A stretch of 46,765 nucleotides of DNA from NCBI GenBank assembly GCA_030614715.1, contig JAUWTM010000011.1, positions 1 through 46,765 on the forward strand, written 5' to 3'. Source of the DNA: Planctomycetota bacterium. Its GTDB lineage: Bacteria; JAJVIF01; JAPKYR01. The position numbers and the translations under genes were made by a program. Below the pieces are notes generated by a model that was given only the letters and a program-made list of their open reading frames with translations, searched no databases and was not told the origin of the DNA. Of this stretch, positions 6,276 through 45,935 are shown one piece after another; positions within the stretch are counted from its first letter, which is position 1, and the number at the start of each line of letters is the position of its first letter.

Positions 6276-9200
6276 ATGAGGGTTTCAACTTATCTGTTAA
6301 CTGCACTAGTTCTATTGTTAGTCATCGGTTGCGCAGGTCACGATTCCGTTCCTGTATTACCGCAGGACCAGGCCACTACCGATGCCATGTCAGGTGGGCA
6401 GTCACACGAGTCCATTCCGGAGAATCGATATATTCTCGGGCTCTGGGTCGGCACAGTAAACGAGGATCGGACCCAGGTCGTTATCACACCGCTGCGAGGA
6501 GCGGAATTCCACCTCAACGCAACGAACATTCTCGAAGGCGGCATGTGCGCTGATTGTCTGGAGATCAGCAATCTGCATGCACCATTCCCCGGAGAACTCT
6601 GGCTCGATCTAACAATCCGTCATCCATACGATGATGGCCTGAACCTGACTATTTTCGATCCCCGAGCTATCTTCATATCGGGCGGTGACTACGATTTCAT
6701 CGAGTTGGGACGCACAACCGCATGGGGTGAGGACGTTCCGGTGTTGTTGAATCCGGATGGGTTCACACAGCTTTTCAATCCGACCGAGTACCCCGAGGAT
6801 TCATCACTTCCCCCGACATTGAAATACTGGACGGGACAGTTTGCGACCGGTGGCGATCTCTCCGCGACACTCAACCCGTACATCGCATATGCCAGTGACG
6901 AGCCTCGACGGATGTTCCTGCCGGGTTCTGAAGAAACATTAACTGTCAAGCTGGCGTTACCGTCCGGACCGCTGCAGTTCGGGTACGCGGTAGATGTCTG
7001 CTGGACCGATCCCGGCGGACCTGTCACCGATCCCGAAATCGATTTCCCACCCGATGCCAATTCCCTTGAGCCATACATGGTTGAGGTCAACCTTTGCGAG
7101 CCGCTGACATCGGAGCAGGGCGATGAATCGTGCGTACATGTGCTCGTATCGGATCACCAGGGTCAGCTTACACTCGGACCTGTGATGCTCGAAGCGCCGG
7201 ACCTCTTTTCCGGTACAGTCATATGCTCCTACTTCACACAGATCGATGAGGACACCTTCGATTACGCAGGCCAGATAACAAATGAATTCGGTGCGGAACC
7301 GGGCACGTATCCGATGCTGGTCAAATCGTACAGCATCGTGGATGATCCCAACCTAGGGGAGGTAAATGCATGGTTCGTAACGAAAGTAGACATTGTACCG
7401 GCAGGATCGCTCCATCCTGTAGCCGTGGCTGACCTTTATCCGGCAGCTCAATTTATGGATCAACCCGTCCATTTTTTCGATGACGGCTCTTACGATCCCG
7501 ACGGTGGCGAGATCGTCCTCTACGAGTGGGACTGGGACAGTGACGGCACATTCGATGAAGAGGGTCAGGACGTCTATCATTCATGGCCCTTAACCGGTAA
7601 TTACGAGGTTAATTTCAGGGTGACCGATGATGAAGGCATGACGGACGAACTCGATGAGCCGTTGAGTGTATATGTGTATGATGGAGAGATCGACTTTTCC
7701 TCACTGACTCCACCCTGGCTGAACTACACACCGAGATTGAACATCACCGAAGGTGACTGTTATGCTGTAACATCTGGCTTTTTCCTTCATTTCTACGATA
7801 TCTCCGATCCGTTGAATCCCGTATGGATCACCAGGATAGATGATTTGAAGATGTACCACGTTAACCATCTGGCATCAAAGGATGGATACATCTATATCGC
7901 CCAGGAGGATATCGATAACCCCCGGCTGAGTATTGTGGATGTAGATCCGGTGCAGGAGACCCACCTTGTTGGCTCTGTCGACATCTCCTGTGGATACCCA
8001 CTGTCGGTAACAATCAAGGATAACTATGCATGGGTTGGTTGTACCGGGTCTGGATCGGCGGGTCATGCCATATCTTTTGTCGATATTACAGATCCTGAAA
8101 GTGCCTTTGAGGCCGGATACGTCAACCTCATGGTCCTGCCTCATAATATTGCTTTCGAGAACGGTTACACGTATGTCGGCGATAATGGCGAGGGAACGGG
8201 GATATCAGTCTATGACATCACTATTCCCGATCAGATCGAGTACCTGCATACTTTCCACGTCGGGAGTGCCCACGACCTGATTGTCGATAACGGTTACACT
8301 TTTTTCTTCAACGTGTATGCCCAAATTATTGATATCACCCCTCCTGATTCTTACGTAGAAATAAATGAGATGGCATCCTTCTATGGCTGGGACTTCGAAG
8401 TAAGGGACGGATACCTGTATGGGACAGCTTCCATCGATGACGTTGGCGGCTGGGTTGTATATGACATCGATCCCCCAGAAGATGCCTTTGTTGTCGCGCA
8501 GATTCCGGACCTTATCGGATTCAACACGACCCTGACCGATGGATATGCGTTCGTTACCGACCAGGGAATCGCAACTCACATCAATGATATTACACCTCCT
8601 GAGACCTCAGAAACCGCAGCTTTCATCTACAGTCTTGATGGAAAGCTAACCGACCTTGCGATCGACGGCGACACCGTCCTGGTGTCGAGGGACGAATCGA
8701 GTTTCTGGCCAATCACGATACATAAGCCTGGAAATATTATCTCAGTAAGTAACAACGATCCTCAGACTGCCCAGATCCTCGACGTCCTTAACGTTGAATC
8801 CGGACCGGATGTGATCACCATTCACAATGGGTATCTGCTGGCTGCCGGCAATGAAAAATTCTACGTGGTAGACATCTCCAACGCTGAAATGCTCTCGATT
8901 GCCTCCGAAATACCAATAGAGGGCGATCCCTCTGATATCGCAATCGATGGATCATACGCTTACATCACTACATCCAGCGGGCTGGTCTCCATCGATATTT
9001 CCTCTCCGGTATCCCCGGTACTTACCGGTCTTCTTCCTCTGACCCACACTCCCCTGCACCTGGAAGTTCAGGACGGCTTCGCGTACATGCTGACTCACAT
9101 CGACACCCATCAAACCGGTCTCGATATAGCCGATATTTCCGATCCTGCCTTAATGACCTACGTGGACACGGTAATTCTCAACGGTCATATCGGAATGTTC

Positions 9201-9560
9201 TCTCCTTATTATTATGAAACCGGAGGATGCCTGGCGACAATTGATCAATACATGTACGCGATAACTCGCGCGCAAAGCGGCGAGTACAATTTCTTGAACA
9301 TTATGAGAATTTCCGATCCCGGATCGGTCGAGGTCGTCGATACACTAACGTTAAATTCGGGAAACCTTCATGACATAATTATCGAGGGTCCGATTGCATA
9401 CATTATCGGACTCGATCAGCTCCTGAAACTTGACTTAACCAATGCCGAATCACCAGTAATCACAAATATCTCTGAAGACATCCGCGGTACTCGTGTCCGA
9501 AAGGAAAATTCCCGGCTATACGTTCTCGGCAGTGGGCTGGAGACCTTTGATCTCCTGTAA
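6276..9560 (+). CDS. giant lipoprotein: shared N-terminal module, PKD domain, LVIVD-type propeller repeats
   Basis: 1094 residues with a lipoprotein signal (LLVIGC, Cys19) and AGGAG before the ATG. Residues about 45-340 form the module shared with four other lipoproteins here: ILGLWVG, GGMCADC, HPY, then NPDGF, FGYAVDVCW, VTDP..DFPPDAN..EPY. A PKD domain follows (about 375-465: DGSYDPDGGEIVLYEWDWDSDG). The rest is a run of about 40-50-residue repeats of the LVIVD type (YDISDPLNPVW, VDITDP, YDITIPDQ, ADISDPA), expected to fold as one or more beta-propellers. The protein is probably anchored to the outer membrane or cell surface. LVIVD proteins are generally of unknown function. It ends at a strong terminator shared with the slipin gene. 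Confidence 0.85.
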   Translation: MRVSTYLLTALVLLLVIGCAGHDSVPVLPQDQATTDAMSGGQSHESIPENRYILGLWVGTVNEDRTQVVITPLRGAEFHLNATNILEGGMCADCLEISNLHAPFPGELWLDLTIRHPYDDGLNLTIFDPRAIFISGGDYDFIELGRTTAWGEDVPVLLNPDGFTQLFNPTEYPEDSSLPPTLKYWTGQFATGGDLSATLNPYIAYASDEPRRMFLPGSEETLTVKLALPSGPLQFGYAVDVCWTDPGGPVTDPEIDFPPDANSLEPYMVEVNLCEPLTSEQGDESCVHVLVSDHQGQLTLGPVMLEAPDLFSGTVICSYFTQIDEDTFDYAGQITNEFGAEPGTYPMLVKSYSIVDDPNLGEVNAWFVTKVDIVPAGSLHPVAVADLYPAAQFMDQPVHFFDDGSYDPDGGEIVLYEWDWDSDGTFDEEGQDVYHSWPLTGNYEVNFRVTDDEGMTDELDEPLSVYVYDGEIDFSSLTPPWLNYTPRLNITEGDCYAVTSGFFLHFYDISDPLNPVWITRIDDLKMYHVNHLASKDGYIYIAQEDIDNPRLSIVDVDPVQETHLVGSVDISCGYPLSVTIKDNYAWVGCTGSGSAGHAISFVDITDPESAFEAGYVNLMVLPHNIAFENGYTYVGDNGEGTGISVYDITIPDQIEYLHTFHVGSAHDLIVDNGYTFFFNVYAQIIDITPPDSYVEINEMASFYGWDFEVRDGYLYGTASIDDVGGWVVYDIDPPEDAFVVAQIPDLIGFNTTLTDGYAFVTDQGIATHINDITPPETSETAAFIYSLDGKLTDLAIDGDTVLVSRDESSFWPITIHKPGNIISVSNNDPQTAQILDVLNVESGPDVITIHNGYLLAAGNEKFYVVDISNAEMLSIASEIPIEGDPSDIAIDGSYAYITTSSGLVSIDISSPVSPVLTGLLPLTHTPLHLEVQDGFAYMLTHIDTHQTGLDIADISDPALMTYVDTVILNGHIGMFSPYYYETGGCLATIDQYMYAITRAQSGEYNFLNIMRISDPGSVEVVDTLTLNSGNLHDIIIEGPIAYIIGLDQLLKLDLTNAESPVITNISEDIRGTRVRKENSRLYVLGSGLETFDLL

Positions 9561-9591
9561 CTCAAAGCCCGACATTCGGCAAATTAAAAAA

Positions 9592-9616
9592 CCCGCATGT
9601 TTCCATGCGGGGTTAT
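9592..9616. terminator. bidirectional terminator, lipoprotein/slipin
   Basis: Stem CCCGCATG (9592-9599)/CATGCGGG (9604-9611) with loop TTTC. A-runs on the left and GTTATTGTTT on the right let it serve both convergent genes. Confidence 0.85.
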
Positions 9617-9635
9617 TGTTTACTATCGACAATTC

Positions 9636-10427
9636 TTACTTCGGTTGCATTCCATCCGGGAGAGATTTATTCATCTCAGCCATATTGAGGAACGGCTTGA
9701 TGAGATCCATCGGGAGCGGGAAGATCGTAGTTGAATTCTTCTCCGCTGAGACCTCGACCAGTGTCTGAAGGTACCTGAGCTGGAGGGTAATCTCGTTCTG
9801 GCTCATGATACGAGCGGCTTCGAGGAGTTTCTGCGACGCCTGGAACTCACCCTCGGCGGCGATGATCTTAGCGCGCCGCTCACGCTCGGCCTCGGCCTGT
9901 TTCGCCATCGCACGCTTCATCGTCTCGGGAAGCTCAACATCCTTGATCTCGACCATGCTGACCTTGATGCCCCACGGGTCGGTCTGTGAGTCGATGATCG
10001 ACTGCAGCGTCTGGTTGATCTTCTCACGGTTTGCCAGAAGGTCATCCAGCTCGTGCTCACCCAGGACGCTTCGGAGCGTGGTCTGTGATATCTGGCTGGT
10101 CGCGAGGTTGTAATTCCTGACGTTATTAACCGCCTTGTTCGCGTCCATGACCTTGTAGTAAATAACCGCGTTGACCCTGATCGTGACGTTGTCGTTGGTA
10201 ATTACCTCCTGCGACGGCACGTCCAGGGTGATAACACGGATGTCGACCTTCCGGATTGTCTGGAATACCGGAACGACGAATACTATACCCGGACCTCTCA
10301 GCCCCTGGTATTTACCAAGCGTGTACAGGACGATCCTCTCGAACTCGTAAGCGATTTTCACGAACCAGCTGATAACAAAAAGTATAATGATAATTGAAAT
10401 GATTACGCCAAGCATTCCATCAGGCAT
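9636..10427 (-). CDS. slipin (stomatin/prohibitin SPFH-family membrane protein)
   Basis: 263 residues: an N-terminal hydrophobic hairpin (about 7-24), then the SPFH domain (YEFERIVLYTLGKYQGLRGPG through IKDVELPETM) and an Ala/Glu/Arg-rich coiled coil (KRAMAKQAEAERERRAKIIAAEGE). The GLRGPG block and the RVITLDVPSQEVITNDNV strand are diagnostic of prokaryotic slipins. Slipins oligomerise in the membrane and are thought to organise lipid microdomains together with NfeD partners. AGGAG lies 9 nt before the ATG. It follows the NfeD-like gene by 60 bp on the same strand, the usual NfeD-slipin operon. Confidence 0.93.
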   Translation of the reverse strand: MPDGMLGVIISIIIILFVISWFVKIAYEFERIVLYTLGKYQGLRGPGIVFVVPVFQTIRKVDIRVITLDVPSQEVITNDNVTIRVNAVIYYKVMDANKAVNNVRNYNLATSQISQTTLRSVLGEHELDDLLANREKINQTLQSIIDSQTDPWGIKVSMVEIKDVELPETMKRAMAKQAEAERERRAKIIAAEGEFQASQKLLEAARIMSQNEITLQLRYLQTLVEVSAEKNSTTIFPLPMDLIKPFLNMAEMNKSLPDGMQPK

Positions 10428-10487
10428 GATATGTTCTCCTCTATGTTTTCTATTTCATCGGTCTATGTAAACTAATTGTAATCAGTG

Positions 10488-10823
10488 TCAAACCTGCTTT
10501 GACCCACTGCCGACAAGGTCAACTTTCTGTACAACAAGGAACTTATCTTTCACAGCGACAACTCTTGTATCATCACTCACTGCTAAATGCCCGAATTCGC
10601 TGACGGCCTCCCAGTAGGCACCGTCCACGTAGACTTTCCCCCGCTGGTGAGGCGTGCATTCCTTCTTTACCGTGCCGATCTCACCGATAAGGTTTTCATC
10701 GGGATTGAAATGACCGCGCAATCCGAAATACTCTGCTGCCATCCAAACCGTTACACCCACCACGAGTATCACAAGCAGGATTGCGCCCCCTAAGATCCAT
10801 GACATCCAGCCAAAAAAAAGCAT
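10488..10823 (-). CDS. short NfeD-like membrane protein
   Basis: 111 residues. A transmembrane segment (about 10-31) is followed by an OB-fold NfeD C-terminal domain (LIGEIGTVKKECTPHQRGKVYVDGAYWEAVS, then VVAVKDKFLVVQKV). This is the short NfeD class lacking the ClpP-like protease half, which pairs with slipins. GGAGG five bases before the ATG fixes the start, and the gene precedes the slipin gene on the same strand. Role: probable partner of the slipin in membrane quality control or microdomain assembly (family knowledge; not shown here). Confidence 0.88.
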   Translation of the reverse strand: MLFFGWMSWILGGAILLVILVVGVTVWMAAEYFGLRGHFNPDENLIGEIGTVKKECTPHQRGKVYVDGAYWEAVSEFGHLAVSDDTRVVAVKDKFLVVQKVDLVGSGSKQV

Positions 10824-10962
10824 GTTCGCCTCCGGTTCGGATTAAGATACACTAAATCAGATTTATCCCCGATTCGCAACATTTACGTAGTTAAAAGACA
10901 CTCTTCAGACGTTTAAGTTGCATTATAAATTGAAATGGACCACCGGTGCCCCTACATAACAG

Positions 10963-10985
10963 TGCCCCGACCGTCAGGGAGGGGG
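10963..10985. repeat. dispersed repeat copy (inverse orientation to 1531-1556)
   Basis: 23 bp TGCCCCGACCGTCAGGGAGG plus GGG, the exact reverse complement of the core at 1531-1553. It sits in the 286-bp gap between the NfeD and sdhB genes, which otherwise shows nothing recognisable. Confidence 0.7.
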
Positions 10986-11109
10986 TAACAATACAAAATA
11001 AAAAATCCCTTGTTACCCGGGGATCGATAATTACCTCTTCCTGACGGCTTACACACTCCATGTCGCCCGGTGTGAATGCCGACAGGTAGTCAACTACCTG
11101 ATCGGATCC

Positions 11110-11847: not shown

Positions 11848-11871
11848 TTCCGGTATCTTGCCTTCTTACCT

Positions 11872-21782: not shown

Positions 21783-21788
21783 TCGAGC

Positions 21789-24529: not shown

Positions 24530-27061
24530 GTGAGGTATTTCCAATCTTCTTTACTGTTGGTTCTGATAGTGAGCGTACTTCTGGTTTCATGCGGACGGTC
24601 CGACAGCCCCATATCCCCATCGCCGGATCTTCCCGCTATACAGCACTCCGAATCAAGTGATTCGGGACACCATCTCTTAAGTTATTACATCATTTCAGTC
24701 GACTTCGCTCAGGATAAGATTGAGCTGATCCCACTCAGGCAGGTCGCGGACCACTGGAACATCCTGGGATTCCTCGAAAATGGACCGTGCACGACATGCG
24801 TCAATATTACAAACTTCCAGACCGACGCGGACGGCTCCAAACTCGTTGATATCCAGTTGATTCATCCCTTCCCCGGCACGAATTTCACCGGCTTCGACGT
24901 GAGGGGTATCGTCATGTTCGACGGCACCAGATTTTTTACCGAATCCGGGCTTACGGTCAGCGATTCATCGCTCGGTGACGGCGAATGCCTGAACGCTGAC
25001 GGTTACACGACCCTTTACAATCCTTTCACATGGGGTTCGGGTCCCGGGGGCCTCCAGGGATACATCCCGGGTAAATTCTCAACACCGACACTCCCCTCTG
25101 CGACCCTTAACGGTTACCTTCGGCATTCAACTGAGGATTTTACGAACACCCGGAATGCATTTTACGCCGCGGACTCAGTCACGAGAACATATCGACTCCG
25201 ATTTCCAACAGGGTCGATTTTCACACTTGGCTACGCGGTCGATGCATCGTGGGCTCCACCGACCAATTTTCCGGTTACCGACCCTATGACTGACTTCCCT
25301 CCCGAGGCAAACTGCCCCGAGCCGTGGAAGATTGAAGTCACCGGACCACTGCCGGAATCTCACACGACCATTAACGGCGGTTTCGCGAACTTCCAGCTGG
25401 ACGTCTACGATTACCAGGGTTCTGAAAGCCACGGAATTCCAATCGCCGAGTGTGAGGATTTGTTCGACGGCATTGTGGAGGCAGAGCTTATGGGTCAGTT
25501 CGATGGATATTCATCGTGGCTGATCACGTTACCGGACACGAAGCTCGCGGATGAGGGAATTTATCGTTGCCTTATCTCAGTTGAGGATAATGAGAATGCC
25601 GGGTCTCCTGAGTACCTGAACCTGACATCGTATGCGATGGTTAATGTCACCATCGGACCGGGTTCATGGGCACGTACATGGGGTGGTACCGATTTCGATA
25701 TGGCGCAATCGGTCGCGGTTGACAGCGAGGGAAATGTCTATATCACAGGTTTCTTCCGCGGGACTGTCGATTTCGATCCGGGAGAAGGCGTGGAGGAGCA
25801 CACGGTCACCGGCTGGAGCGGTTACGAGGACGCATTCCTGAGCAAGTTCGATACCGATGGGGATTTTCTCTGGGTCCGGACGTGGGGTGGTGAATGGCAC
25901 GAAGGCGGGGAAGATGTCGCGGTCGATAGTGAGGGAAACATTTACATTGCAGGTTACTTCAATGAGGAGGTTGACTTCGATCCCGGTCCCGGTACTGACA
26001 TTCACAACGGAAACGGTGACTGGGACAGCTTCCTGTCCAAATTTTCACCCGATGGCACATTCCAGTGGGCGGGCACATGGGGTGCGCCGTACGCTGACAA
26101 GGCTCTTGGTGTGGCGTGCACAGATACCGATTATATTTTCGTGTGCGGCTACATGAACGGCGCGTGCGACTTCGATCCCGGCCCGGGAGTAGATTATGTC
26201 GATGCAATTCCGACATCCGGTTACCTGAGTAAATTCGAGCCGAACGGAAATTACATTTTCTCGAAGATCTGGCACGGTTACGGTGAGGGAACATGCATAG
26301 CACGGGCTGTCGATGTGGATAACATGGGAAATGTCTACGTTACTGGTGAATTCTGGGACAACGTTGACCTTGATCCCGACAGCGGCACGCAGAACTTCAC
26401 CGCTCCCGGATATTACTCCAACGCATACCTGAGCTCATTCGACTCGACGCTGAATTTCCAGTGGGGTTACGGATGGGGCGGCGATTCCAGTGATTCCAGC
26501 TTCGATGTCGCGGCCGATGATCTCGGGAGCGTGTACGCGGTCGGATGCTTCGGTGATACGGTCGACTTCATGCCGGGTCCGGGTCAGGAGCTCTGGACGG
26601 CACAGACCGAGCTCGATTCCTTCGCGGTTCGGTACTCGAACACCGGTGAGTTCGTCTGGTCAAAAGCGTGGGGAGGTCCGAACGGTGTTGGAGACGATGC
26701 CGACAAGGCTTACGCAGTCGATTGCGATTACGAGGGCAACGTCTACATAGCGGGTTACTTCAACAACACGATGGATTTCGATCCCGGTCCGGGTGATTAC
26801 AACCTGACTGCTGCCGGACAGACCGACTGCTACCTGACGTCGCTGGACACTAACGGTGACCATCGCTGGACAACTGTAGTCGGGGGAGCGAACCGTGACA
26901 GCCCGTGGGGGATCGCGGTCGATGCTGACAGGAACTCGTACATGGTCGGGATGTTCCAGGAGGAGGTCGATTTCAACCCATCGGCACTCACCGACAATCA
27001 TACAGCTGTGCAGGGCTTGGATTGTTTCCTCGTGAAGTACTTCTGGTGGGGCGGCTGGTAA
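24530..27061 (+). CDS. lipoprotein with shared N-terminal module and seven SBBP beta-propeller repeats
   Basis: 843 residues from GTG 24530, with an AAGGTG ribosome site. The lipobox is LLVSC (Cys21). The shared module (about 45-310) reads GPCTTC, then IHPFPG, TGFDVRGIVMFDG, NADGYTTLYNPFTW, LGYAVDASWAPP and DFPPEAN..EPW. From about residue 380 there are seven SBBP repeats of about 60 residues, each with WGG, a VDSEGNVYI strand, VDFDPGPG and an F-L-x-K-F/Y strand; seven repeats suit a seven-bladed propeller. Some FDPG loops vary (VDLDPDSG, VDFMPGPG). Probably surface-exposed; ligand unknown. Same architecture as the gene at 43407-45935. Confidence 0.85.
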   Translation: MRYFQSSLLLVLIVSVLLVSCGRSDSPISPSPDLPAIQHSESSDSGHHLLSYYIISVDFAQDKIELIPLRQVADHWNILGFLENGPCTTCVNITNFQTDADGSKLVDIQLIHPFPGTNFTGFDVRGIVMFDGTRFFTESGLTVSDSSLGDGECLNADGYTTLYNPFTWGSGPGGLQGYIPGKFSTPTLPSATLNGYLRHSTEDFTNTRNAFYAADSVTRTYRLRFPTGSIFTLGYAVDASWAPPTNFPVTDPMTDFPPEANCPEPWKIEVTGPLPESHTTINGGFANFQLDVYDYQGSESHGIPIAECEDLFDGIVEAELMGQFDGYSSWLITLPDTKLADEGIYRCLISVEDNENAGSPEYLNLTSYAMVNVTIGPGSWARTWGGTDFDMAQSVAVDSEGNVYITGFFRGTVDFDPGEGVEEHTVTGWSGYEDAFLSKFDTDGDFLWVRTWGGEWHEGGEDVAVDSEGNIYIAGYFNEEVDFDPGPGTDIHNGNGDWDSFLSKFSPDGTFQWAGTWGAPYADKALGVACTDTDYIFVCGYMNGACDFDPGPGVDYVDAIPTSGYLSKFEPNGNYIFSKIWHGYGEGTCIARAVDVDNMGNVYVTGEFWDNVDLDPDSGTQNFTAPGYYSNAYLSSFDSTLNFQWGYGWGGDSSDSSFDVAADDLGSVYAVGCFGDTVDFMPGPGQELWTAQTELDSFAVRYSNTGEFVWSKAWGGPNGVGDDADKAYAVDCDYEGNVYIAGYFNNTMDFDPGPGDYNLTAAGQTDCYLTSLDTNGDHRWTTVVGGANRDSPWGIAVDADRNSYMVGMFQEEVDFNPSALTDNHTAVQGLDCFLVKYFWWGGW

Positions 27062-30854: not shown

Positions 30855-32078
30855 TCAATACCTGAAAAGCGAATCCTCCCAGACCTTCAGTTCGCGGCCG
30901 CCCTCCCACCCGTCACCGGGCTCCCGGATCACGAATGCAAGGGGTATTTGTCTGGACGCACCTATACTGCCGATCCCGCTCGAACCCCCGACCCACATAG
31001 CCGATGAACCACCGGAATCGCACATGATCGCTTCTCTAGCGTTGCATTCAATCATCACATCGGCTGCCGCACTGACGGACAGAGCCGGACCACGGGTAAT
31101 CGCAAGGAATATTTCGTCGTTCCATGTAAGTCCTATAATGCTCCTGTGGGCGCTCCCGAGAATGTTCCCACTGTACGTGGTCTCAGCGGAATAATCCCTG
31201 GCATGGCCATCGTGGACGAACCATGGACCCAGTGTTGCGATCCAGTTCATAAGCTCCCAGTCTTCGGGAAGCTCGTACGCGTATATAGCAGTCCTGTTAC
31301 CGACCTGGTAGCGCTCCGCATCGGAGGTCGTGCTCCCCCGGAAAACAAGGGCATAGCCGCCGTCCGGAATAGTAAGGGAGCCTGATGAGACCTCGATAAC
31401 CTCACCGTCCCATCTCTCTTCATCGTCATGATACGGGCCGTAGATGACAATTTCATCGCTGCGGGTTACATCTGGCGATATCGCGACCACTGTTCCTCCC
31501 TGGGCGTTAACAGAGGACCCCCAGTTGTGATCGTAAAGCGTCACAGCGTTGTTTGCAGCCGGATTGTTAACACCGTAGAGCCAGATCGGCTCGAAATACT
31601 CGTCGCTGGTGACGAAAGCCTTCGGGTGGGCGACCTCTACCTGAAATTCCCCGTCGGGATCGATTCCAACTAAAGGCCGCATCAGGTTCCCGAGCTGTGC
31701 AATCCGGCTATTTATTGCTGTGAACCCTAATGGATAAACACGGTTCCCAGATGATGCAAAATACGGACCGTTCATCGATGCAAGGGCACCTGTACGGGAG
31801 CCGATCGACTGGGCGGACGCGGTCTGGCCCATTAAATCACCACCCAGGGCAACATCCAATGTGAGCCTGCCGTCCCGGATAGCATCGAGATCGATAGTAA
31901 CCATATGAACCGTCACAGTGCCCGAGGAGCCTGAGACAGTGATCCGGGAGTAATCGACATCCGGATCGAGTGACACCGTCTGCAGAATTTCGCTGCCGGA
32001 TGCGGGATGCCCGGTGAGCCCGATAAACAGTGCGATAAGAATTGGCAACATGCTGAGATTTAATGGTGGCCTGACCAT
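30855..32078 (-). CDS. secreted phosphodiester glycosidase (NAGPA/DUF2233-type)
   Basis: 407 residues with a signal peptide (about 1-28, ending ASG). An N-terminal strand region (HMVTIDLDAIRDGRLTLDVALGGD) leads to the NAGPA core: ALASMNGPYFASSGNRVYPLG, then FLAITRGPALSVSAAADVMIECNAREAIMCDSGGSSAMWVGG, then PLAFVIREPGD. The MNGPYF and DSGGSSAM motifs are hallmarks of the family that uncovers GlcNAc-1-phosphodiesters and of bacterial exopolysaccharide-associated homologues. Exported; probably acts on surface or environmental glycans. Same strand as the hydrolase at 28673 but separated by 262 bp with no recognisable feature. Confidence 0.87.
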   Translation of the reverse strand: MVRPPLNLSMLPILIALFIGLTGHPASGSEILQTVSLDPDVDYSRITVSGSSGTVTVHMVTIDLDAIRDGRLTLDVALGGDLMGQTASAQSIGSRTGALASMNGPYFASSGNRVYPLGFTAINSRIAQLGNLMRPLVGIDPDGEFQVEVAHPKAFVTSDEYFEPIWLYGVNNPAANNAVTLYDHNWGSSVNAQGGTVVAISPDVTRSDEIVIYGPYHDDEERWDGEVIEVSSGSLTIPDGGYALVFRGSTTSDAERYQVGNRTAIYAYELPEDWELMNWIATLGPWFVHDGHARDYSAETTYSGNILGSAHRSIIGLTWNDEIFLAITRGPALSVSAAADVMIECNAREAIMCDSGGSSAMWVGGSSGIGSIGASRQIPLAFVIREPGDGWEGGRELKVWEDSLFRY

Positions 32079-32331: not shown

Positions 32332-35178
32332 ATGGCTAGGAAACCGGGCTTCCATATTGGAATAGTCCTGATGCTTGTTTTCCTTCTCACGGCTTGTTCC
32401 GGTGGAGGCAATCCAGTGACAGGGTCTCTCACCGGGGACGAGGGGCTCTCTTCACATCGTGACGTGAACGTCTCCAACCATCGAATGCTATGGGGTTACT
32501 ATAACTGTGTTATTGACACCGCTACGAATACTGTTCAAGTGGTGCCAACCCGTGGCGCGATGATGCACGTCAACGCTGTTGAATGGATGCAGCCGCCGGC
32601 AGGTTCACTTGCTAACCTGCAGGTCGTAATAACCGATGACAGTCTGTGGACGACCGAGGGCAGATTCGACGTTGATGTCTCTCTGACCCATCCACTTGCG
32701 GGTCTCACTCAGTACACGGGATTCGACGTCATGGGTGTGTTCATCACCGATGGACACGAACAAATGCTGTCCCAGGTAGGTGTCCGGTATACCGATGAAG
32801 GTAACCAGGATGCCTGGCTGAGAAACGCCGATGGATATACCCGATGGTGGAACCAGGACGAGTTCCCGTTCGACGGTATTACCATCTTCTCCTACATCCC
32901 CGGCGCTGTGGGATACGATGCTGATGGTCTGGACGCCACGATCAACCCCTACAAGTACTTCACGATCGGAATTAGTCCCTCTGATGATGCGAATGAATGG
33001 GTTGGATCGAATATCCCCGACCGCGGCATGTTCCCTTCAGGTGAAACAATCACCCGAAGTTACGAACTTCAGTGGCCGATGGTAGCAGGTGTCCCGCAAC
33101 TGGCTTTCGACTACGCGGTCGTTGCCAGCTGGGAACCCGCAATTAACGTCCCTCCGGTCACCATTCCCGATGATTTCCCGATCATCGCCAACGCACTCGA
33201 GCCGGTCGCCATCAGCGTAACCGACACCTCGAACCTGTACTACGACGATGTAAACGACATCTACGGCGGAATGCTGGTCTTTGACATTGAAGTTTACGAC
33301 TGGCAGGGTCTCGATCCAGCTACCCCCATCGATGCACTGATGGACAGGGTTGTCATCGAGCTTGCCGATTCCCCGGTCTTCCCGGGTGGTACTTACTTCG
33401 CGGAAACCGATGCAAGCTGGTCCGTGGCTGCCGGTGCAGCTCATTCATCCACATGGCACGTTGAAATCCCGGGTCTCGCACCCGTTGATATTGGCGATAC
33501 ACCGATGTGGATCATTCTCGAAACCGATCTTGACTACGACAACGGTTTCGGCACTACCTACCCGATTGGCGCACCGCTGGCGTCCTATTTCAAGACTACA
33601 GCACACATCTTCGGTGCTGAGGGTCAACCGGCCTGCGATAACCTTACTTCCGAGTTTATCGATCGTAACTACATCGAGATCGAGGACTACTCGGTCGAGG
33701 TTACCGTACCGGGTGGCAGCGGTTACTCCTGCGACTGGTCGATAGTTCCTTACGGCGATTCGAAGGTCTGGCAGACCTTCCCACCGCAGGATCAGCCCGT
33801 CGACGATATCACGGTCAACTGGTACGCCGTTACCGGGCAGGGTGCAACCCTCGGCTCCTACGAGGTATGCGTAAGTGTATACAACGCCGAGGGTTTCGAC
33901 ATGTGCTGCCTGAGTGTGATGGTCGACGATCTTCCGGCACTTGGGCCTGTTACCGGTCAGAACGGCATTACGCTGCCGCAGCAACCCGACCAGGGCGCAC
34001 AGCCGTGCGATATCACCGTTTACAACACGGGTAGCGGCAGTAACGGCCAGATCATGTACCAGGATGCCTTTATGGTGCCCCCGTCCGTCAGGCTCTATCG
34101 TTTCAATGACAACTATTCAAGCATTGTCGGCACACCGACGCTTGCAGCCGCCGGTCCGCCTCCACTCGACGAGGCGTCAGTATGGAACGACTATCACAAG
34201 TTCGATGTCGCTCCGACCGGGTTTACAATCTTCACATCGTCAGCGAGCGCCGTATGGCCGTCAATCGCGGACCCGAACGAATACTTCATCAACGATCCTT
34301 ACCACAGCTGGATCCTGTCGTACTGGAACCTTACAGGCGTTCAGATCATGCTCGGCCTGTACGGTGATGTCGGCTACAGCCCGACGCCACCGTCGCCACC
34401 CGATCCGGATGGTGTTCCATGGAAGCACGTGGTCGACTGGACCGCCGGTGCCGCGCATTTCACCAACAGGCTCTATTCGATGATGACAATCAGTGAGCTG
34501 TGGATACCCGAGCATCCCGGTTACACACATCCGGGCGACATCTACGCCGTTTACGCCGCTTCACCATACAACTCCCTTATCAATGACTACGATGCTATCG
34601 GGCTCGACCTGAGCACCCAGCATCCAAGCGGCGGCGTAGTGGACGACACCGTACCGAACCTGATGGCCCTGGCTGTCGATGACGAGATGCCGGTCTCCGC
34701 TGACTGGTCTTCCGGTCCCGGTGACCTCTCCAGTGATATCGTCGTCTGGTACTTCCTCTCGAGTGAAGCAACCGGCGCCAACAGGAAGGTCCACCTGGTC
34801 CTCCTGCCGGAGGATATCACCATCGCTTTCGATATCTACTATTACGACGATTACATCGGAAACGGCTCCCTCTGGGGTATCGACTTCGGTGGAGCGACTC
34901 CGATCGATATCGAGACCATCTACGCAAATTCCGCAGGCTCACCGCTGTCTCATACGTACAACTGGCTGGCTGTGCTGGTCGATACCGGTACCGGCTGGCG
35001 GGTGGACGTGTTCCGCTACGATCCTGTGTTCGGCACAATCGTTGCCGTCGACTCGTACGATGCCGGCGTAACATCCGGCGTACCTACCGGGCTTGACGTT
35101 GACAACGAACAGCACGAGCTTCATGTGCTATTTGATAACGCCGGGACCTACCAGGTCACGGTACTTGAATTCACCTAG
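32332..35178 (+). CDS. lipoprotein with shared N-terminal module, long unique C-terminal half
   Basis: 948 residues from ATG 32332, chosen because AAGGAGG lies 6 nt upstream; the longer frame from 32302 has no such site. Lipobox FLLTAC (Cys22). The shared module (about 40-340) keeps HRMLWGYY, VVPTRGAMMHVNAV, THPLAG, TGFDVMGVFITDG, NADGYTRWWN, DYAVVASWEP and IIANALEP, but its CxxC pair is missing. Then comes an Ig-like Cys-rich part (GYSCDWSIVPYG to MCCLSVMVDD) and about 400 residues of aromatic, Asp/Pro-rich beta sequence that I cannot match. It probably sits on the cell surface. A small secreted peptide gene follows 17 bp downstream. Confidence 0.85.
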   Translation: MARKPGFHIGIVLMLVFLLTACSGGGNPVTGSLTGDEGLSSHRDVNVSNHRMLWGYYNCVIDTATNTVQVVPTRGAMMHVNAVEWMQPPAGSLANLQVVITDDSLWTTEGRFDVDVSLTHPLAGLTQYTGFDVMGVFITDGHEQMLSQVGVRYTDEGNQDAWLRNADGYTRWWNQDEFPFDGITIFSYIPGAVGYDADGLDATINPYKYFTIGISPSDDANEWVGSNIPDRGMFPSGETITRSYELQWPMVAGVPQLAFDYAVVASWEPAINVPPVTIPDDFPIIANALEPVAISVTDTSNLYYDDVNDIYGGMLVFDIEVYDWQGLDPATPIDALMDRVVIELADSPVFPGGTYFAETDASWSVAAGAAHSSTWHVEIPGLAPVDIGDTPMWIILETDLDYDNGFGTTYPIGAPLASYFKTTAHIFGAEGQPACDNLTSEFIDRNYIEIEDYSVEVTVPGGSGYSCDWSIVPYGDSKVWQTFPPQDQPVDDITVNWYAVTGQGATLGSYEVCVSVYNAEGFDMCCLSVMVDDLPALGPVTGQNGITLPQQPDQGAQPCDITVYNTGSGSNGQIMYQDAFMVPPSVRLYRFNDNYSSIVGTPTLAAAGPPPLDEASVWNDYHKFDVAPTGFTIFTSSASAVWPSIADPNEYFINDPYHSWILSYWNLTGVQIMLGLYGDVGYSPTPPSPPDPDGVPWKHVVDWTAGAAHFTNRLYSMMTISELWIPEHPGYTHPGDIYAVYAASPYNSLINDYDAIGLDLSTQHPSGGVVDDTVPNLMALAVDDEMPVSADWSSGPGDLSSDIVVWYFLSSEATGANRKVHLVLLPEDITIAFDIYYYDDYIGNGSLWGIDFGGATPIDIETIYANSAGSPLSHTYNWLAVLVDTGTGWRVDVFRYDPVFGTIVAVDSYDAGVTSGVPTGLDVDNEQHELHVLFDNAGTYQVTVLEFT

Positions 35179-35696: not shown

Positions 35697-36911
35697 ATGA
35701 AAAGAAGTGCGATCCTGTTAATTTTTCTTCTGCTGGCAGGATGCGCGTCGGGTAATTCAATCGTGCCCGGAATTGAACAGCCTGCGGATATTCAATTAAT
35801 GTCGCATAATGGGGAAGTGCATGACCCGCATATGTTATGGGGCGAATGGACGTTTTATTTCAATGAAACTCATGACAGTGTCGATGTTGTCCCCAAACGC
35901 GCCGGGCGTTTACATCTGAACGTGGTCAAGTTTCTCGAGGAGTACTGCGAGGACTGCCTGGAGATCACCAATATTCATAACAACGGCGACGGCACCATTA
36001 ATATAAATGTGCAGATAAAACATCCATTCCCCGACAGTCCGGAATACACGGGATTCGACGTAAAAGGCATCATTATGTTCAATGGGTCGTGGGAGACGAA
36101 TTGGTCATCACATACATCTTTTCCATTTGATGGGACTGCTATAGTCAGCTATAGGGAGTTCGGCGATCCCGAGCTGTTGAATCCCGACGGTTACACGCCC
36201 CGGTGGTGCCCAACGTGGGAATCTGGTTCCGGGATGCCGATATTCAATTACTGGCCGGGAAAATATACGAATGGGGAGCCGACCGCGAACATCAACGGAT
36301 TCATTAATTTTTACACGGATGAAGAAAGGCATATGTTCCGTGTGGGGCAGGCTGTAACGCGGACCTATCATATCGCGCTTCCGCCGGGACCGGTTGTTGC
36401 CGGCTACGCTGTCGATGCATGCTGGGAGCCGCCGACAGTTACCCCCGTCACCGATCCGCTGAATGATTTCCCATTTTCCGCAAATCAACCTGAGCCGTAT
36501 TATTTCAGGCTGGTTCTGAATAATGATGAGGTGATTGAAGATCTGGAGTGCTGTGGCTATGAAAACGAAGCATTTCAAACTCACGATTGTGCGGATATAT
36601 GGATCGAATGGAAATCATGGTACGTCCCGATAGAAGCTTTACAGGAGTATCCGTGGCGTTTCGGTTTGCGTTGGGAAAAGGATGACCCGAATTTTGGAAC
36701 CGGAATAATATTCTACGATACTGTGCCGTTTTGCAAAGACGGAACAGGACCTGGCGATATGGCGTTATATCCCGGAACGGTCATCCCTGGTTATCAGGGA
36801 GAAGGTAAGTGGCGGTATGCGGTTAGAATTAGCTATGACATGGAAGTGCCATTGGGAGTTCAACGGATTGGCGCTTATGACATCGTCGATGTTGAGGTAG
36901 ATTTTCCATAA
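35697..36911 (+). CDS. lipoprotein consisting essentially of the shared N-terminal module
   Basis: 404 residues with an excellent AAGGAGG site and lipobox LLAGC (Cys16). It shows the shared module in nearly stand-alone form: HMLWGEWTFYF, VVPKRAGRLHLNVVKFLEE, YCEDCLEITNIHNNGDG, IKHPFPD, TGFDVKGIIMFNGS, NPDGYTPRWCPTW, YWPGKYTNG, TYHIALPPG, AGYAVDACWEPP, DFPFSANQPEPY. About 100 further residues of beta sequence (VDVEVDFP at the end) follow. No propeller repeats are present, so this member best defines the module's limits. The gene is bracketed by the 51-bp direct repeats at 35561 and 37009. Confidence 0.85.
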   Translation: MKRSAILLIFLLLAGCASGNSIVPGIEQPADIQLMSHNGEVHDPHMLWGEWTFYFNETHDSVDVVPKRAGRLHLNVVKFLEEYCEDCLEITNIHNNGDGTININVQIKHPFPDSPEYTGFDVKGIIMFNGSWETNWSSHTSFPFDGTAIVSYREFGDPELLNPDGYTPRWCPTWESGSGMPIFNYWPGKYTNGEPTANINGFINFYTDEERHMFRVGQAVTRTYHIALPPGPVVAGYAVDACWEPPTVTPVTDPLNDFPFSANQPEPYYFRLVLNNDEVIEDLECCGYENEAFQTHDCADIWIEWKSWYVPIEALQEYPWRFGLRWEKDDPNFGTGIIFYDTVPFCKDGTGPGDMALYPGTVIPGYQGEGKWRYAVRISYDMEVPLGVQRIGAYDIVDVEVDFP

Positions 36912-40598: not shown

Positions 40599-40616
40599 GA
40601 GATTCGAGCGAATCTC
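40599..40616. promoter_or_regulatory. candidate operator of the AbiEi-like regulator
   Basis: GAGATTCGAGCGAATCTC: two perfect 8-bp arms around AG, just upstream of -10-like sequences and 94 bp before the gene. Known AbiEi antitoxins repress their own promoters by binding inverted repeats. Confidence 0.5.
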
Positions 40617-40673
40617 ACAAAGGTTATGATAGAATGATACGCTCTGCACATTGATGCAAGAGGAGGAAGGTTT

Positions 40674-40700
40674 TTAAGAAAAAATTTTCTGTTTTCTTAA
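40674..40700 (+). promoter_or_regulatory. hairpin between ribosome binding site and start codon
   Basis: TTAAGAAAA (40674-40682)/TTTTCTTAA (40692-40700), loop of 9. It separates AGGAGGAAGG (40661-40670) from ATG 40710; folding would bring them to about 12 nt apart. Confidence 0.45.
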
Positions 40701-40709
40701 GGCTTATTA

Positions 40710-41495: not shown

Positions 41496-42630
41496 CTCCA
41501 CCCTTAGTTGTCAACCTTGCAGCTTTCTGACTCTCGATCTTCGTCCTGAGCGATCCACCCTTCTTCTTGGTATCTCTCTGTTCACGCTCCTCAGCTGGAG
41601 CTTTCGATACCACAGGCGTATCATCAACGATTCCCATCTGCCGTTTCGCGAAGTCAGCAACGGTGACCAGTCTCGGAATTCTCCCGAATTTTTCAATCGA
41701 ACCGAGGATCAGTTTCAGGTTCCTGCTGAGATTCCTGGTACCCCCCGCGACAAGACCGCCGTCCGGAACCTCCAGTCCGGCAGCCTGCATCGGGTGCACA
41801 ACCAGCATCAGGTATTCTGCGTGCTTGTAGATCGAACCAAGCCCTGCTTTCAGGACCTCATGGTCGAAGGACAGGTCGATATACCGTCGGATTCCAGGTT
41901 CAGTTGTATCATCGGGATCGTACGGAGCCCTGATGCCTGCCATGGTGAATGGTATCTGGAGAATCGACAGCGATTCCTCCGCTTCGACCCTGTCACCCGA
42001 CCCGTACGCGCGCGTAGGCCTGCGGTAATCGCCTCGCGACGGGTGATACGGGGAATCGGGTGTGGTCTCCCAGTCGAACCACCGAAGGCCATCGTCCCTT
42101 TTCCGTCCGGGCAGTGCGGACGAATCGGCGAGTATGCCGATATTATCGAGACTTTGCATCAGCTCATTTGAGGCGACCGACTCTCCCATGCGGGATGTCA
42201 CGGGCTTGAATTCCCCTCCTGATATTTCATGCCAGATCCTGTCGATTGCGGATTTCAGCTTTTTATGGTCACGGATCGGGATCCAATTCTGTCCGTGACG
42301 TTTGTAAACATGCGGGTGCCAGCCTATTTCGCCACCGAAGAGCGTGCAGTCCTCCCAGAATTCCCTCCAGCCATGAAAAAGACCGAGTGCATTGCCCGTA
42401 ATATCCTTCACCTGCATGTCGGCCCTTACGAACCATGTAACGGGAAGGAGGTTCCCCCAGTTTCTGCTGATGACATCACCAAGGATGTCACGTATCTCCG
42501 GCAGGACATCCATAAGGGCGGTGAATCTCGATTTACGGTCTCCCTGGTCGAAGGAACCGTCGCACACGTCAACCGTCAGGAGAACAGGCAGTTCTTTCCG
42601 CGTGTAATTATTACCGATTCTCTCAGCCAT
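41443..42630 (-). CDS. polysaccharide-deacetylase-like protein
   Basis: 395 residues. The beta/alpha-barrel motifs of the deacetylase superfamily can be traced: LLTVDVCDGSFDQGD (Asp pair in the place of TFDD), VTWFVRAD, GGEIGWHPHVYKRHG (His pair), VTSRMGESVASNELMQSLDNIGILADSSALPG, then LMLVVHPMQA. This resembles the WalW-like and DUF-type deacetylase relatives linked to surface glycans rather than classical NodB. No signal peptide, so cytoplasmic. A Lys/Arg-rich tail (about 340-395) extends past the domain and overlaps the AbiEi-like gene. AGGAG seven bases before the ATG supports the start. Confidence 0.72.
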   Translation of the reverse strand: MAERIGNNYTRKELPVLLTVDVCDGSFDQGDRKSRFTALMDVLPEIRDILGDVISRNWGNLLPVTWFVRADMQVKDITGNALGLFHGWREFWEDCTLFGGEIGWHPHVYKRHGQNWIPIRDHKKLKSAIDRIWHEISGGEFKPVTSRMGESVASNELMQSLDNIGILADSSALPGRKRDDGLRWFDWETTPDSPYHPSRGDYRRPTRAYGSGDRVEAEESLSILQIPFTMAGIRAPYDPDDTTEPGIRRYIDLSFDHEVLKAGLGSIYKHAEYLMLVVHPMQAAGLEVPDGGLVAGGTRNLSRNLKLILGSIEKFGRIPRLVTVADFAKRQMGIVDDTPVVSKAPAEEREQRDTKKKGGSLRTKIESQKAARLTTKGGVTPDRRRHRPDPRKRQG

Positions 42631-42743
42631 GGGTCCACTCCTCTCGTTCCAGCCAATGGATAAATTATATCAAATATCCGTGGACAGAGGGGTTGAAAGC
42701 GTCGAACAAAAACTCATCCTGGTTTTGTGTATTGTCAGTGCTA

Positions 42744-43385
42744 CTATTTCTCTGAGTTCTCCGTACGCCAGCCGGTGAAGTCCGGGTAAAGATAAACGCA
42801 GAATTCGAACAGCGGGTAATCGTGACGCAGCGAAACCCTCTTTGTAAGCGTCTTGCAGAACGAGAACACTTCCGCTGGATCAAAATAGTAAAGATGGTCC
42901 TCCGTGAAGTCGACATGGGAGCTCATCATGTCGAATGCAACGCCCTTCTTCGCGATCCTGAAACACTTCGCGATGACCTTTTTGATGACCTTGAGGTTAT
43001 CTGACTCACCAAACCTGTTGTTGAAGGCCTGGCTGGAGACCACGTAATCATATTCAAGGTCGTCCGGTGCATCGAGTATATCCAGCTCGAGGAATTCCTC
43101 CCCGGGATGACGTTTCTTCGCTTCCTTGAGGAACGCCGGAACAATATCGATGCCGGTGTAGGTAACAGGCTGACCGTAGTGACGGCAGTAGTCGACAAAA
43201 CCCCCGAATCCGCAGCCCACATCGAGGACTCTCTGCCCTCCGAGGTCCGCTATTTCCGACAGCACCTTGTAACGGATGGCCTGGTGCTCATCCGATCCGC
43301 TTCCCAGCGCCTCGACAACGCTACCGAGTCTGTCGAAACGGTCGGAGTAGCGTTTGATAATTTCCTGTTTTTCATTGAGTTCCAT
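42744..43385 (-). CDS. class I SAM-dependent methyltransferase
   Basis: 213 residues. SAM-binding motif I is RVLDVGCGFGGFVDYC, motif post-I is VTYTGIDIVPAFLKEAKKRHP, motif II is FLELDILDAPDDLEYDYVVSSQAFN and motif III VAFDMMSSHVDF. The long C-terminal strand (RVSLRHDYPLFEFCVYLYPDF) is typical of small O- or C-methyltransferases acting on sugars, lipids or quinones; the substrate is not evident. It starts 21 bp after the SBBP lipoprotein stop on the same strand, so the two may be co-transcribed. Confidence 0.88.
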   Translation of the reverse strand: MELNEKQEIIKRYSDRFDRLGSVVEALGSGSDEHQAIRYKVLSEIADLGGQRVLDVGCGFGGFVDYCRHYGQPVTYTGIDIVPAFLKEAKKRHPGEEFLELDILDAPDDLEYDYVVSSQAFNNRFGESDNLKVIKKVIAKCFRIAKKGVAFDMMSSHVDFTEDHLYYFDPAEVFSFCKTLTKRVSLRHDYPLFEFCVYLYPDFTGWRTENSEK

Positions 43386-43406
43386 AATTGATGTTACCGA
43401 GTGTTA

Positions 43407-45935
43407 TTACTCCCATTCCCCGTTGTTCAGGTACTTAAGGAGGAAGGCATCATACTGCCCTGCGGACGCGTGAGTATCGGGTGCGCTTGACGACGGAGCG
43501 AAATCCGCTGAATTGGAGAAGTCGCCGCAGATGTACGGGAACAATGATTGTCCAAGGTCAATTCCTCTTGACTGGTCCCAGCCAGGCGACGTGATCACCC
43601 TGGACCACTGGTAACCGCTGGTAGCGGCGTACCGTGCAATAAAAATATCCCCGCCATCCGAAGTATGCACGTCAGATCCTGGACCGGGATCAAAGTCCAC
43701 TGTGCCCTCGTAGTATCCAGCAACAAATACATCACCTGTCGGATCGGCGACACAATCTTTCATTGAGTCACCGGCAGACCCGCCAAGTGATTGTGCCCAC
43801 TGGAATTCACCAGTGGAATCGTATTTCGTTAAAAATCCATCCCATTGACCAGCACTACCCAGCCAGTATTCACCCGGGCCGGGATCGAAATCAATAACAC
43901 CTTCATAGTCTCCAGTGGCATAAATTTCATTCAGGTGAGTGGTTGTAACACCCTGGGAATAATCTACAGTGAGTCCACCCCAGTGGACACCCCAGTAATA
44001 GACACCATCGTTTGTGAACCTGCTTAAAAAGACGTCCTGCAGACCCGCAGATTGATGAATATCGATACCGGGCCCGGGATTAAAATCGATGCCGGTATCG
44101 TCATCATTGTTCCGAAAGTGACCGAGCACCGCAATATAGCCAAGGGTATCCAATTCAACATCATTTCCCACATCGGCTTTCTCCCCACCCCACGTTTGTA
44201 CCCATGAAACCATATAATCCGTGTAATAAAACTTCGCAAGGAATGCGTCGGTTGATCCATTCGAAGCGTGCGGAGTGTCACCGAACCAGAACGTGGTGTC
44301 ACCGCCTAACACACCGGTAATGTAGGCATTCCCTTGAACATCAGAAGCCACACCACGTACTTTGTCCGTGTTTGGCCCCTGGACCAGCCTGGTATAATGC
44401 CAGTCACCGTTGTACATAAATCGGCTCATGAAGCCATCTGTAGAACCTTCGCAATCCCTGATGTACTCGTCGTCGGGATCGGTATCGAAATCCACGGTAG
44501 ACGTCCATTCACCTGCCACGTAAACGAAATCCGTTCCGGACGTCGCGACGCTGTATGCAATGTCATCGCCGGGTCCACCCCATGTTCTCGTCCACTGGTA
44601 CACCCCTTCAGAATCGTACTTGGTAAGGAAACAGTCCAGCAGGCCAATGGAGATATATTCATCGACACCCTCTGTTGGATCGAAATCGCTGCTGCCACGA
44701 AACGCACCTGCAACATAGACATCACCCAGATCACCCGCGACGACGTCGTAGGCAAACTCGTAATTCGTGCCGCCCCATGTCCTGGCCCAGCCCTCAGGTT
44801 CGTCCGGCATGACGCTCAGAGGGAATACCTGATACGCGGTCAGGTCGATGTAATCCGGGAAGGAACCTGCGTCCTGATCAAATATGCTGATGAGGCAGTC
44901 ATAGCTTCCAACCGGCGGCAATAATTCATTTTCTATCAGCACTTCCCAGGTGTGTATGTCCCCGTCCCAGCCCCAGGAGCCAGCTTCAAGTGTCCCGGTA
45001 AAAATTTCAGGGCATTCCAGCTCAGGAGCGAAGTCCGTTCCCGGTATGTAGTTATGGGAGTAGATCGTGACACGTACCCCGCCCCCGGATTCGGTCAGGC
45101 CCGGGCCGATCGGGTCCTGCACGACTTCGATCATGTACGGTTCGTAACTGTTGGCACTGTAATCGAAATCGGTCATCGGATCGACGACAGGATTAACAAT
45201 TGGGGGCGCCCAGCAGGCTGAAACGGCGTAACCGAATACGAAATCACCCTCAGGCAGGTGTATCAGGTTCGGTACCGTGATCGAGTCGCCAGGATAAAAC
45301 GCGTTTCTCATGTTAGCGGGATCATCGGTTATGTAGCGCATGAATGGATTCAGTGTTGCGGTTGGTGGAAACGGGGAAGCGTAATTCCCCTCGATGTAAC
45401 CCTGGATCGGCGGAGCTCCAGCGCCAATGGTCCACGGAGCCATAAGGGTCGTCCAGCCATCTTCTGATATCATCCCGCCTTGACCGGCTGTGTTATGGTC
45501 CGGGATGGTTAAGCCTGATATCGGGAAAGTATGGCCCGGCTCAAACATCACTATTCCGCGGACGTCGAATCCGGTTAAATTTAAATTACTGAAGGGATGC
45601 GTGATTTCAACGTGAAAATAATACCATCCAAACAGGAAGGGCACGATGTCGACAACCGCGACACAGTCAGTGCACGGTCCGCCTTCCAGCCACCGGAGCA
45701 CATTCCAGTAATCCGCCGCTTGACGGACAGGCACAACGTCGCAGGTGTTGGTCTCCGCGTCGTAATGGAACTCGTAATAGCCCCAGATGTAGCGGTTGTC
45801 CGATATATTTTCATCCTGCTGTGCGGAAAGGTCGGTGTTCTCATCGATGTCCGTCAGGACAGGTGAGTCTGAGTTATTACAGCCAACCAGGAATATGACA
45901 AGCAGGATGGAACCAAGAGCCCAGTGTAAACGCAT
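43407..45935 (-). CDS. second SBBP-repeat lipoprotein with the shared N-terminal module
   Basis: 842 residues from ATG 45935, fixed by GGGAGG eight bases upstream; the frame to 46001 is non-coding leader. Lipobox FLVGC (Cys19). Shared module (about 40-310): NRYIWGYYEFHYD, VVPVRQAADYWNVLRWLEGGPCTDC, THPFSNLNLTGFDVRGIVMFEPG, FGYAVSACWAPP, DFDYSANSYEPY. Seven repeats follow (about 385-842) of the SBBP form WGG, a strand, VYVAG, FDPGPG loop. Blade 3 departs from the pattern (DTTFWFGDTPHAS) and blade 2 reads VDFDTDPDDEY. Same architecture as the gene at 24530-27061, so they are paralogues. Followed closely by the methyltransferase gene. Confidence 0.85.
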   Translation of the reverse strand: MRLHWALGSILLVIFLVGCNNSDSPVLTDIDENTDLSAQQDENISDNRYIWGYYEFHYDAETNTCDVVPVRQAADYWNVLRWLEGGPCTDCVAVVDIVPFLFGWYYFHVEITHPFSNLNLTGFDVRGIVMFEPGHTFPISGLTIPDHNTAGQGGMISEDGWTTLMAPWTIGAGAPPIQGYIEGNYASPFPPTATLNPFMRYITDDPANMRNAFYPGDSITVPNLIHLPEGDFVFGYAVSACWAPPIVNPVVDPMTDFDYSANSYEPYMIEVVQDPIGPGLTESGGGVRVTIYSHNYIPGTDFAPELECPEIFTGTLEAGSWGWDGDIHTWEVLIENELLPPVGSYDCLISIFDQDAGSFPDYIDLTAYQVFPLSVMPDEPEGWARTWGGTNYEFAYDVVAGDLGDVYVAGAFRGSSDFDPTEGVDEYISIGLLDCFLTKYDSEGVYQWTRTWGGPGDDIAYSVATSGTDFVYVAGEWTSTVDFDTDPDDEYIRDCEGSTDGFMSRFMYNGDWHYTRLVQGPNTDKVRGVASDVQGNAYITGVLGGDTTFWFGDTPHASNGSTDAFLAKFYYTDYMVSWVQTWGGEKADVGNDVELDTLGYIAVLGHFRNNDDDTGIDFNPGPGIDIHQSAGLQDVFLSRFTNDGVYYWGVHWGGLTVDYSQGVTTTHLNEIYATGDYEGVIDFDPGPGEYWLGSAGQWDGFLTKYDSTGEFQWAQSLGGSAGDSMKDCVADPTGDVFVAGYYEGTVDFDPGPGSDVHTSDGGDIFIARYAATSGYQWSRVITSPGWDQSRGIDLGQSLFPYICGDFSNSADFAPSSSAPDTHASAGQYDAFLLKYLNNGEWE

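Follow-up and report, generated by a model that had tools for sequence, protein, structure and literature searches.

A massively duplicated lipoprotein family with a probable two-domain stalk and variable heads in an uncultured bacterial phylum

The contig JAUWTM010000011.1 of the Planctomycetota bacterium assembly GCA_030614715.1 (GTDB lineage Bacteria; JAJVIF01; JAPKYR01) is 46,765 nucleotides long, and contains several genes for lipoproteins that share their N-terminal region and differ in their C-terminal part. This stretch, here called the window, makes up the complete contig C118 of a draft genome of 4.29 Mb in 254 contigs, which is 87% complete and 0.6% contaminated. A lipobox, a constant two-domain region behind it, variable C-terminal parts, a paired CxxC motif and massive duplication are all directly visible in the sequences. 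We propose, with a probability of roughly 0.6, that the shared region is a lipid-anchored stalk which presents a large repertoire of binding heads, and that the proteins make up a phylum-specific, massively duplicated envelope family. The lipid would anchor each protein in the outer membrane, the two-domain stalk would lift the head away from the membrane, and the heads would form a binding or adhesion repertoire for polymers, particles or neighbouring cells. The location is probably the outer surface, this and the ligands being what we infer rather than see.

A preliminary description of this DNA, made from the sequence alone, named five such genes. All five open reading frames (ORFs) were confirmed at their positions, each starting with a signal peptide and a lipobox as judged by eye. 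They are listed here with their domains, including putative immunoglobulin-like (Ig-like) domains, and with a sixth member.

6276-9560, plus strand: member 1 (P0001, 1094 aa), with lipobox; module at 6291-7118
about 7119-7397, plus strand: Ig-like 'DWQG' domain of P0001, after the module
about 7461-7649, plus strand: PKD domain of P0001 (PKD_4, E 3.8e-9, over the Pfam cut-off)
tail of P0001, plus strand: LVIVD-type β-propeller repeats after the PKD domain (LVIVD, E 2.4e-10, over the cut-off)
24530-27061, plus strand: member 2 (P0002, 843 aa), with GTG start and lipobox; module at 24551-25351
about 25352-25657, plus strand: Ig-like domain of P0002, the protein whose N-terminus was modelled
tail of P0002, plus strand: SBBP 'DFDPGPG' β-propeller (SBBP, E 3.5e-14, over the cut-off)
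32332-35178, plus strand: member 3 (P0003), within a frame listed from 32302, with lipobox; module at 32356-33240, without CxxC
about 33241-33609, plus strand: Ig-like domain of P0003, then a long tail without Pfam match
35697-36911, plus strand: member 4 (P0004, 404 aa), with lipobox; module at 35706-36533, with YCEDC
about 36534-36902, plus strand: divergent second domain of P0004, with no tail beyond
43407-45935, minus strand: member 5 (P0005), within a frame listed to 46001, with lipobox; module at 45087-45911
about 44805-45086, minus strand: Ig-like domain of P0005, then an SBBP-type propeller
3-935, plus strand: sixth, truncated member, its N-terminus beyond the contig start (two-domain profile, E 1e-5)

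The five N-termini are clearly homologous, as had been proposed. An all-against-all phmmer comparison of the first 400 or so residues gave non-self E-values from 6e-16 to 2e-87 (computed for the five-sequence set) at 25-40% identity, which excludes a chance resemblance. The motifs that had been quoted are also present: the cysteine pairs GGMCADC, GPCTTC, YCEDC and GPCTDC occur, with none in the gene at 32332; GFDV is found in four of the five, with IFDP in the gene at 6276; and N(A/P)DG(Y/F)T is found in four of the five, with SEDGWT in the gene at 45935. The shared region was earlier taken as a single module of some 300 residues. A shared N-terminal region is indeed there, but it reaches to about residue 380 and consists of two domains: a module of approximately 230 residues, often with a CxxC, and directly behind it a putative Ig-like domain of approximately 100 residues with a 'DWQG' signature (consensus GG...L.V.DWQG...E.P.L..G...AY...V). 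The gene at 35697 had been seen as nearly the bare module. It has no tail, but a divergent second domain stands behind its module, and the same domain is recognisable in diverged form in the other 'bare' proteins of about 400 residues. Six close paralogues of P0004 have open frames of 398-413 aa, with 51-63% identity over the matched part.

A compact shared fold had also been expected, and structure prediction bears this out. AlphaFold was run on the N-terminus of the gene at 24530 with a 146-row alignment of both domains, its rows coming from five genomes of the phylum, and gave a confident model of the module together with the second domain (mean predicted local distance difference test, pLDDT, 89.6; predicted template modelling score, pTM, 0.81). 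The model consists mainly of strands with short helices, and we read it as two β-sandwiches. Residues 23-45, past the lipidated cysteine, have a pLDDT below 50. A model of the module by itself, based on a 33-row alignment that starts at the signal peptide and ends near residue 272 of P0004, was weaker (pLDDT 75, pTM 0.73).

The module could not be named previously, and no credible match was found in Pfam or NCBIfam. At E up to 1, no Pfam family had its best stretch starting before residue 389 in the five window proteins. Pfam families over the cut-off were limited to P0001 (PKD_4, LVIVD) and P0002 (SBBP), with no match for P0003 and P0004; P0005 has an SBBP match of 16.8 bits, under the Pfam cut-off of 20.5, and its tail falls in the same similarity community as that of P0002. 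The sole Pfam hit among the 33 module rows was CTD6 (E 0.12, one row), which is at noise level, as are the top hits in NCBIfam (E from 0.026 to 0.2, each in one or two of the 33 rows), the NCBIfam search covering the module rows only. A search of PDB sequences with the module profile gave nothing better than E 0.36, and a fold search of BFVD gave no E below 0.001. Neither a known domain nor unrelated N-termini, either of which would have spoken against the earlier proposal, turned up in sequence searches.

The scale of the family is striking, and the preliminary description understated it in speaking of five genes within 40 kb. The window itself holds the sixth member, which keeps just the last part of its second domain (about 57-254) together with a tail, and the genome carries far more copies on other contigs, with at least 186 ORFs in total. 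With P0004 as the only query, 169 matches were obtained in the genome, a single gene sometimes accounting for two of them. In 93 fetched regions plus the window there are 186 distinct family ORFs, 150 of them with a complete module; counted from stop to stop and with fragments included, they span 461 kb, or 10.7% of the assembly. A strict lipobox rule was passed by 158 of the 186, the other 28 being mostly contig-edge pieces or ORFs with a lipobox by eye, and the lipobox cysteine is kept in 99% of the 146 aligned rows. A further 20 contigs (240 kb), chosen by number from those not yet on the list of contigs with hits, added seven family ORFs among 203, two of which are adjacent pieces and maybe one gene. 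One family member (G000:C213:4746-5648, in loci L021 and L184) has an in-frame TAG inside its six-frame match, which may reflect the choice of start site, a fault in the assembly or a pseudogene.

A restriction to few phyla had been predicted, and this holds as far as searched. The family is present in all five genomes of the phylum that were searched, giving at least 150, 135, 117, 139 and 67 matches, some of which may be two pieces of one gene. In a first search of 41 genomes, these five had matches and none of the 36 outside the phylum did. The two-domain profile was then run against 386 genomes, with at most five candidates scored per genome. Every listed hit in the five phylum genomes had E 4e-58 or better, scores for window proteins being high by construction as these are rows of the profiles. 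Outside the phylum, 11 of 381 genomes each had a single hit, marginal and partial (E from 1.2e-4 to 7e-3); nine of these hits begin at the end of the signal peptide, and we read all 11 as noise. When the GTDB-220 species collection was scanned with patterns, 30 loci were confirmed, all in two metagenome-assembled genomes, 'bacterium' LacPavin_0920_SED3_MAG_49_9 and 'Planctomycetota bacterium' CSMAG_1386; the two peptide patterns used are too narrow to pick up the more distant families of the phylum. A scan of the genome contig collection with P0004 as a single protein found no relative, the 30 loci coming from the alignment-based scan. In viral contigs, the pattern matched 31 stretches with no relative among them, and a weak search of the open-licence PMC literature did not find a description of the family. 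Within the genomes searched, the family therefore appears to be lineage-specific and restricted to its own phylum.

The C-terminal tails consist mostly of β-propellers and PKD-type domains, and in rare cases of a clostripain-type peptidase. Among 178 tails (64 + 114) at an E of 0.01, with the best 25 of 42 and 25 of 45 Pfam families considered, there were matches to PKD_4 in at least 29, LVIVD in at least 26, SBBP in at least 26, DUF5122 in at least 8, PQQ_2 in at least 6 and peptidase C11 in at least 2. All these figures are minimum values: each tail was scanned from the last module-profile hit onwards, and in some proteins (including that of the gene at 6276) this hit lay inside the tail; the tail communities were built from re-cut, full tails. 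Many tails thus resemble known LVIVD, SBBP and PKD repeat proteins, from which the family differs in that the two-domain stalk lies outside the matches to those families in the window proteins. The tail of the gene at 32332, earlier called unique, has no Pfam match, but it does have one related paralogue (E 4e-23) among the tails compared. Two members, L144 (contig C111) and L103 (contig C205), have a clostripain-type peptidase (C11) tail in place of a propeller; to judge from these sequences, the stalk anchor also serves an enzyme.

The combination of one module with different tails had been put down to domain shuffling, which stands only in part. A FastTree tree was made of 198 modules, with 110 rows labelled by six tail communities. 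The tail type changes 25 times on this tree, compared with a mean of 67 and a minimum of 61 in 60 label shuffles, the fewest possible changes for six types being 5; since the labels are similarity communities and not curated domains, noise in the labels may account for part of the 25 changes. The observed number is far below that of the shuffled trees, and therefore tails mostly descend with the module. Sister pairs share their tail type in 25 of 29 cases. Among between-genus pairs of reciprocal-best modules, the tails are mutual best hits in 5 of 13, a partial sample of genomes G001 and G002 in which some tails are cut at locus ends. Some exchange of tails between modules also takes place. 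These comparisons suggest that duplication of genes accounts for most of the growth of the family, tail types being for the most part passed on with the module and now and then exchanged.

The CxxC, which was to be checked for pairing, behaves as a pair: 78 of the 146 rows have both cysteines, a single row has one of them, and 67 have neither. This all-or-none presence indicates that the two cysteines function together. On the module tree the CxxC is gained or lost only 4 times, against a shuffled mean of 64. Its presence also follows tail type: the two largest tail communities have it in 21 of 26 members and 21 of 23 members, a third has it in 2 of 14, and the remaining three have it in none of their 47. 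In genomes G003 and G004 it is present in all 11 full-length modules, a count drawn from hits to a mostly CxxC-bearing profile, and weaker members without CxxC exist there. In the model the cysteines are residues 82 and 85, in a turn just before the core strand 86-93, and the pair is most likely a disulfide that would staple this turn. A metal site is possible. A haem c site was rejected on inspection, as no histidine follows in the window proteins. The lack of the pair in nearly half of the rows speaks against an indispensable catalytic function; cysteine-free loops would have replaced the CxxC turn in much of the family.

Some family genes are dispersed and others form runs of at most seven copies, and adjacent copies are on the same strand in 54 cases and on opposite strands in 11, with repeats from overlapping loci included. 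BamA-type Omp85 homologues were found in all five phylum genomes (best E per genome between 1e-63 and 3e-18, in each case short of the curated cut-off), which argues for an outer membrane. Behind the predicted lipidated cysteine there is a proline-containing linker, with a motif that in many members is roughly C-(S/A)-G-x-(N/D/S)P-[VITL]-x-P; its two prolines are conserved in 96% and 88%, respectively, of the 146 rows. A serpin-like lipoprotein in L109 (contig C87), recognised by eye, has a proline motif like that of the family after its cysteine.

Several points weigh against the proposal of a surface-exposed stalk with binding heads. Lipobox proteins can also face the periplasm, so that surface exposure is inferred. 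The heads are generic folds, and point to no ligand. No conserved partner gene is evident beside the members, the largest recurrent neighbour group comprising 8 of 520 ORFs; and a search for BamD gave weak hits only, BamA and BamD being the only envelope or export machinery searched for. In addition, the module has conserved polar residues (in model numbering H107, D118, N150, D152, N189, R203, Y230, N256 and E259), which could signal a binding or metal site of its own, beyond the function of a stalk. Calcium binding by the conserved N-x-DG loop would be a guess from the motif.

These residues lead to a different explanation, in which the module is the functional unit, with the CxxC and polar residues as a site for a ligand, metal or redox reaction, and the tails are accessory; the proteins might then be periplasmic. 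The all-or-none CxxC fits this, as do the HP, FD, N-x-DG, R, W and E positions, which are nearly invariant in rows from the five genomes, and a second neighbour group of six TlpA/redoxin-like ORFs (as judged by eye from one, for example L135:2668-3316, minus strand). Almost half of the rows, however, lack the CxxC while keeping the rest of the module, so that it is not an essential site of the whole family, and the redoxin neighbours are just 6 of the 520 ORFs. Comparison of the stalk with PDB structures gave no match that stands out: weak hits include enzymes (sulfite oxidases, GH2), but none is significant, and they concern what we take to be accessory Ig-like or sandwich domains. We consider this explanation improbable. 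We hold it equally improbable that the module is a known domain that has diverged past recognition, such as BACON, a GH2-type sandwich/Ig pair, a tandem pair resembling fibronectin type III or a carbohydrate-binding module. BACON (PF13004), the N-terminal Ig-like spacer of Bacteroidetes surface lipoproteins, resembles the module in layout, standing behind a lipobox and ahead of varied binding or catalytic domains in many paralogues. Its profile has, however, 61 positions compared with approximately 230 residues in the module, which often has a CxxC and has a second domain behind it. The BACON profile matched none of the five phylum genomes at E 0.001 while a Bacteroides control was positive, and at E up to 1 it had no match in the 33 module rows.

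It might also be that the N-terminal region is a targeting or export module for a lineage-specific surface machinery, with the tail as joined cargo and C-x(2-8)-(N/D/S)P-[VITL]-x-P as a short sorting signal. We regard this as unlikely. The two conserved prolines lie within the stretch of low pLDDT; in the genome of the window a loose form of the motif occurs in 124 of 139 family members compared with 21 of 47 nearby non-family lipoprotein-like ORFs; a stricter form occurs in 3 of 3 family members compared with 1 of 15 others in the 20 further contigs; and some non-family lipoproteins that look secreted carry it by eye. On the other hand, genome G003 shows no separation (3 of 5 family members, 4 of 8 other lipoproteins), sample sizes are low, the patterns were devised with the family sequences already in view, and a number of the non-family ORFs may be spurious. 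The folded module is also far larger than the short lipoprotein export signal (LES) of Bacteroidetes set out in PMC5080379. The motif counts hint, weakly, at an LES-like export signal in the family.

The type of system that we favour, a lipid-anchored spacer with varied binding heads, has precedents; what is new, as far as these searches go, is the two domains, the scale and the lineage. A stronger version would be that this is a phylum-defining display system, with a stalk found nowhere else that is duplicated some 200-fold, exchangeable heads, a sorting signal of its own and about a tenth of the genome, making it the counterpart in an uncultured phylum of the Bacteroidetes Sus lipoproteins or the mycobacterial PE/PPE proteins. 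We give this version somewhat less than even odds. The SusD and SusE/F-type lipoproteins, with their LES, are similar in forming a large repertoire within one phylum and in having a short motif just past the lipidated cysteine, given in PMC5080379 as K-(D/E)2 or Q-A-(D/E)2. The motif of the present family differs from these forms in being based on proline. No TonB-type partner was seen by eye among the 12 largest neighbour groups, a further difference from Sus, with no dedicated TonB search made.

The PE/PPE proteins of mycobacteria share a constant N-terminal domain, a variable C-terminal part and a large share of the coding capacity. They are helical, are not lipid-anchored and are exported by ESX. 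The likeness is in layout alone, and we claim no relation in sequence or fold.

As it takes up about a tenth of the genome and is present in every genome of the phylum examined, the family probably matters for the way of life of these uncultured bacteria. Neither Pfam nor NCBIfam has a name for the module, and Pfam has none for the second domain, as judged from the five window proteins. Defining both domains would annotate a couple of hundred genes at once and provide a metagenome marker for the phylum, and would make it testable how a lineage outside the Bacteroidetes sorts and varies its lipoproteins.

It is worth adding that the window also contains, between the family genes, a secreted protein resembling phosphodiester glycosidase (NAGPA), at 30855-32078 on the minus strand, as recognised by eye.
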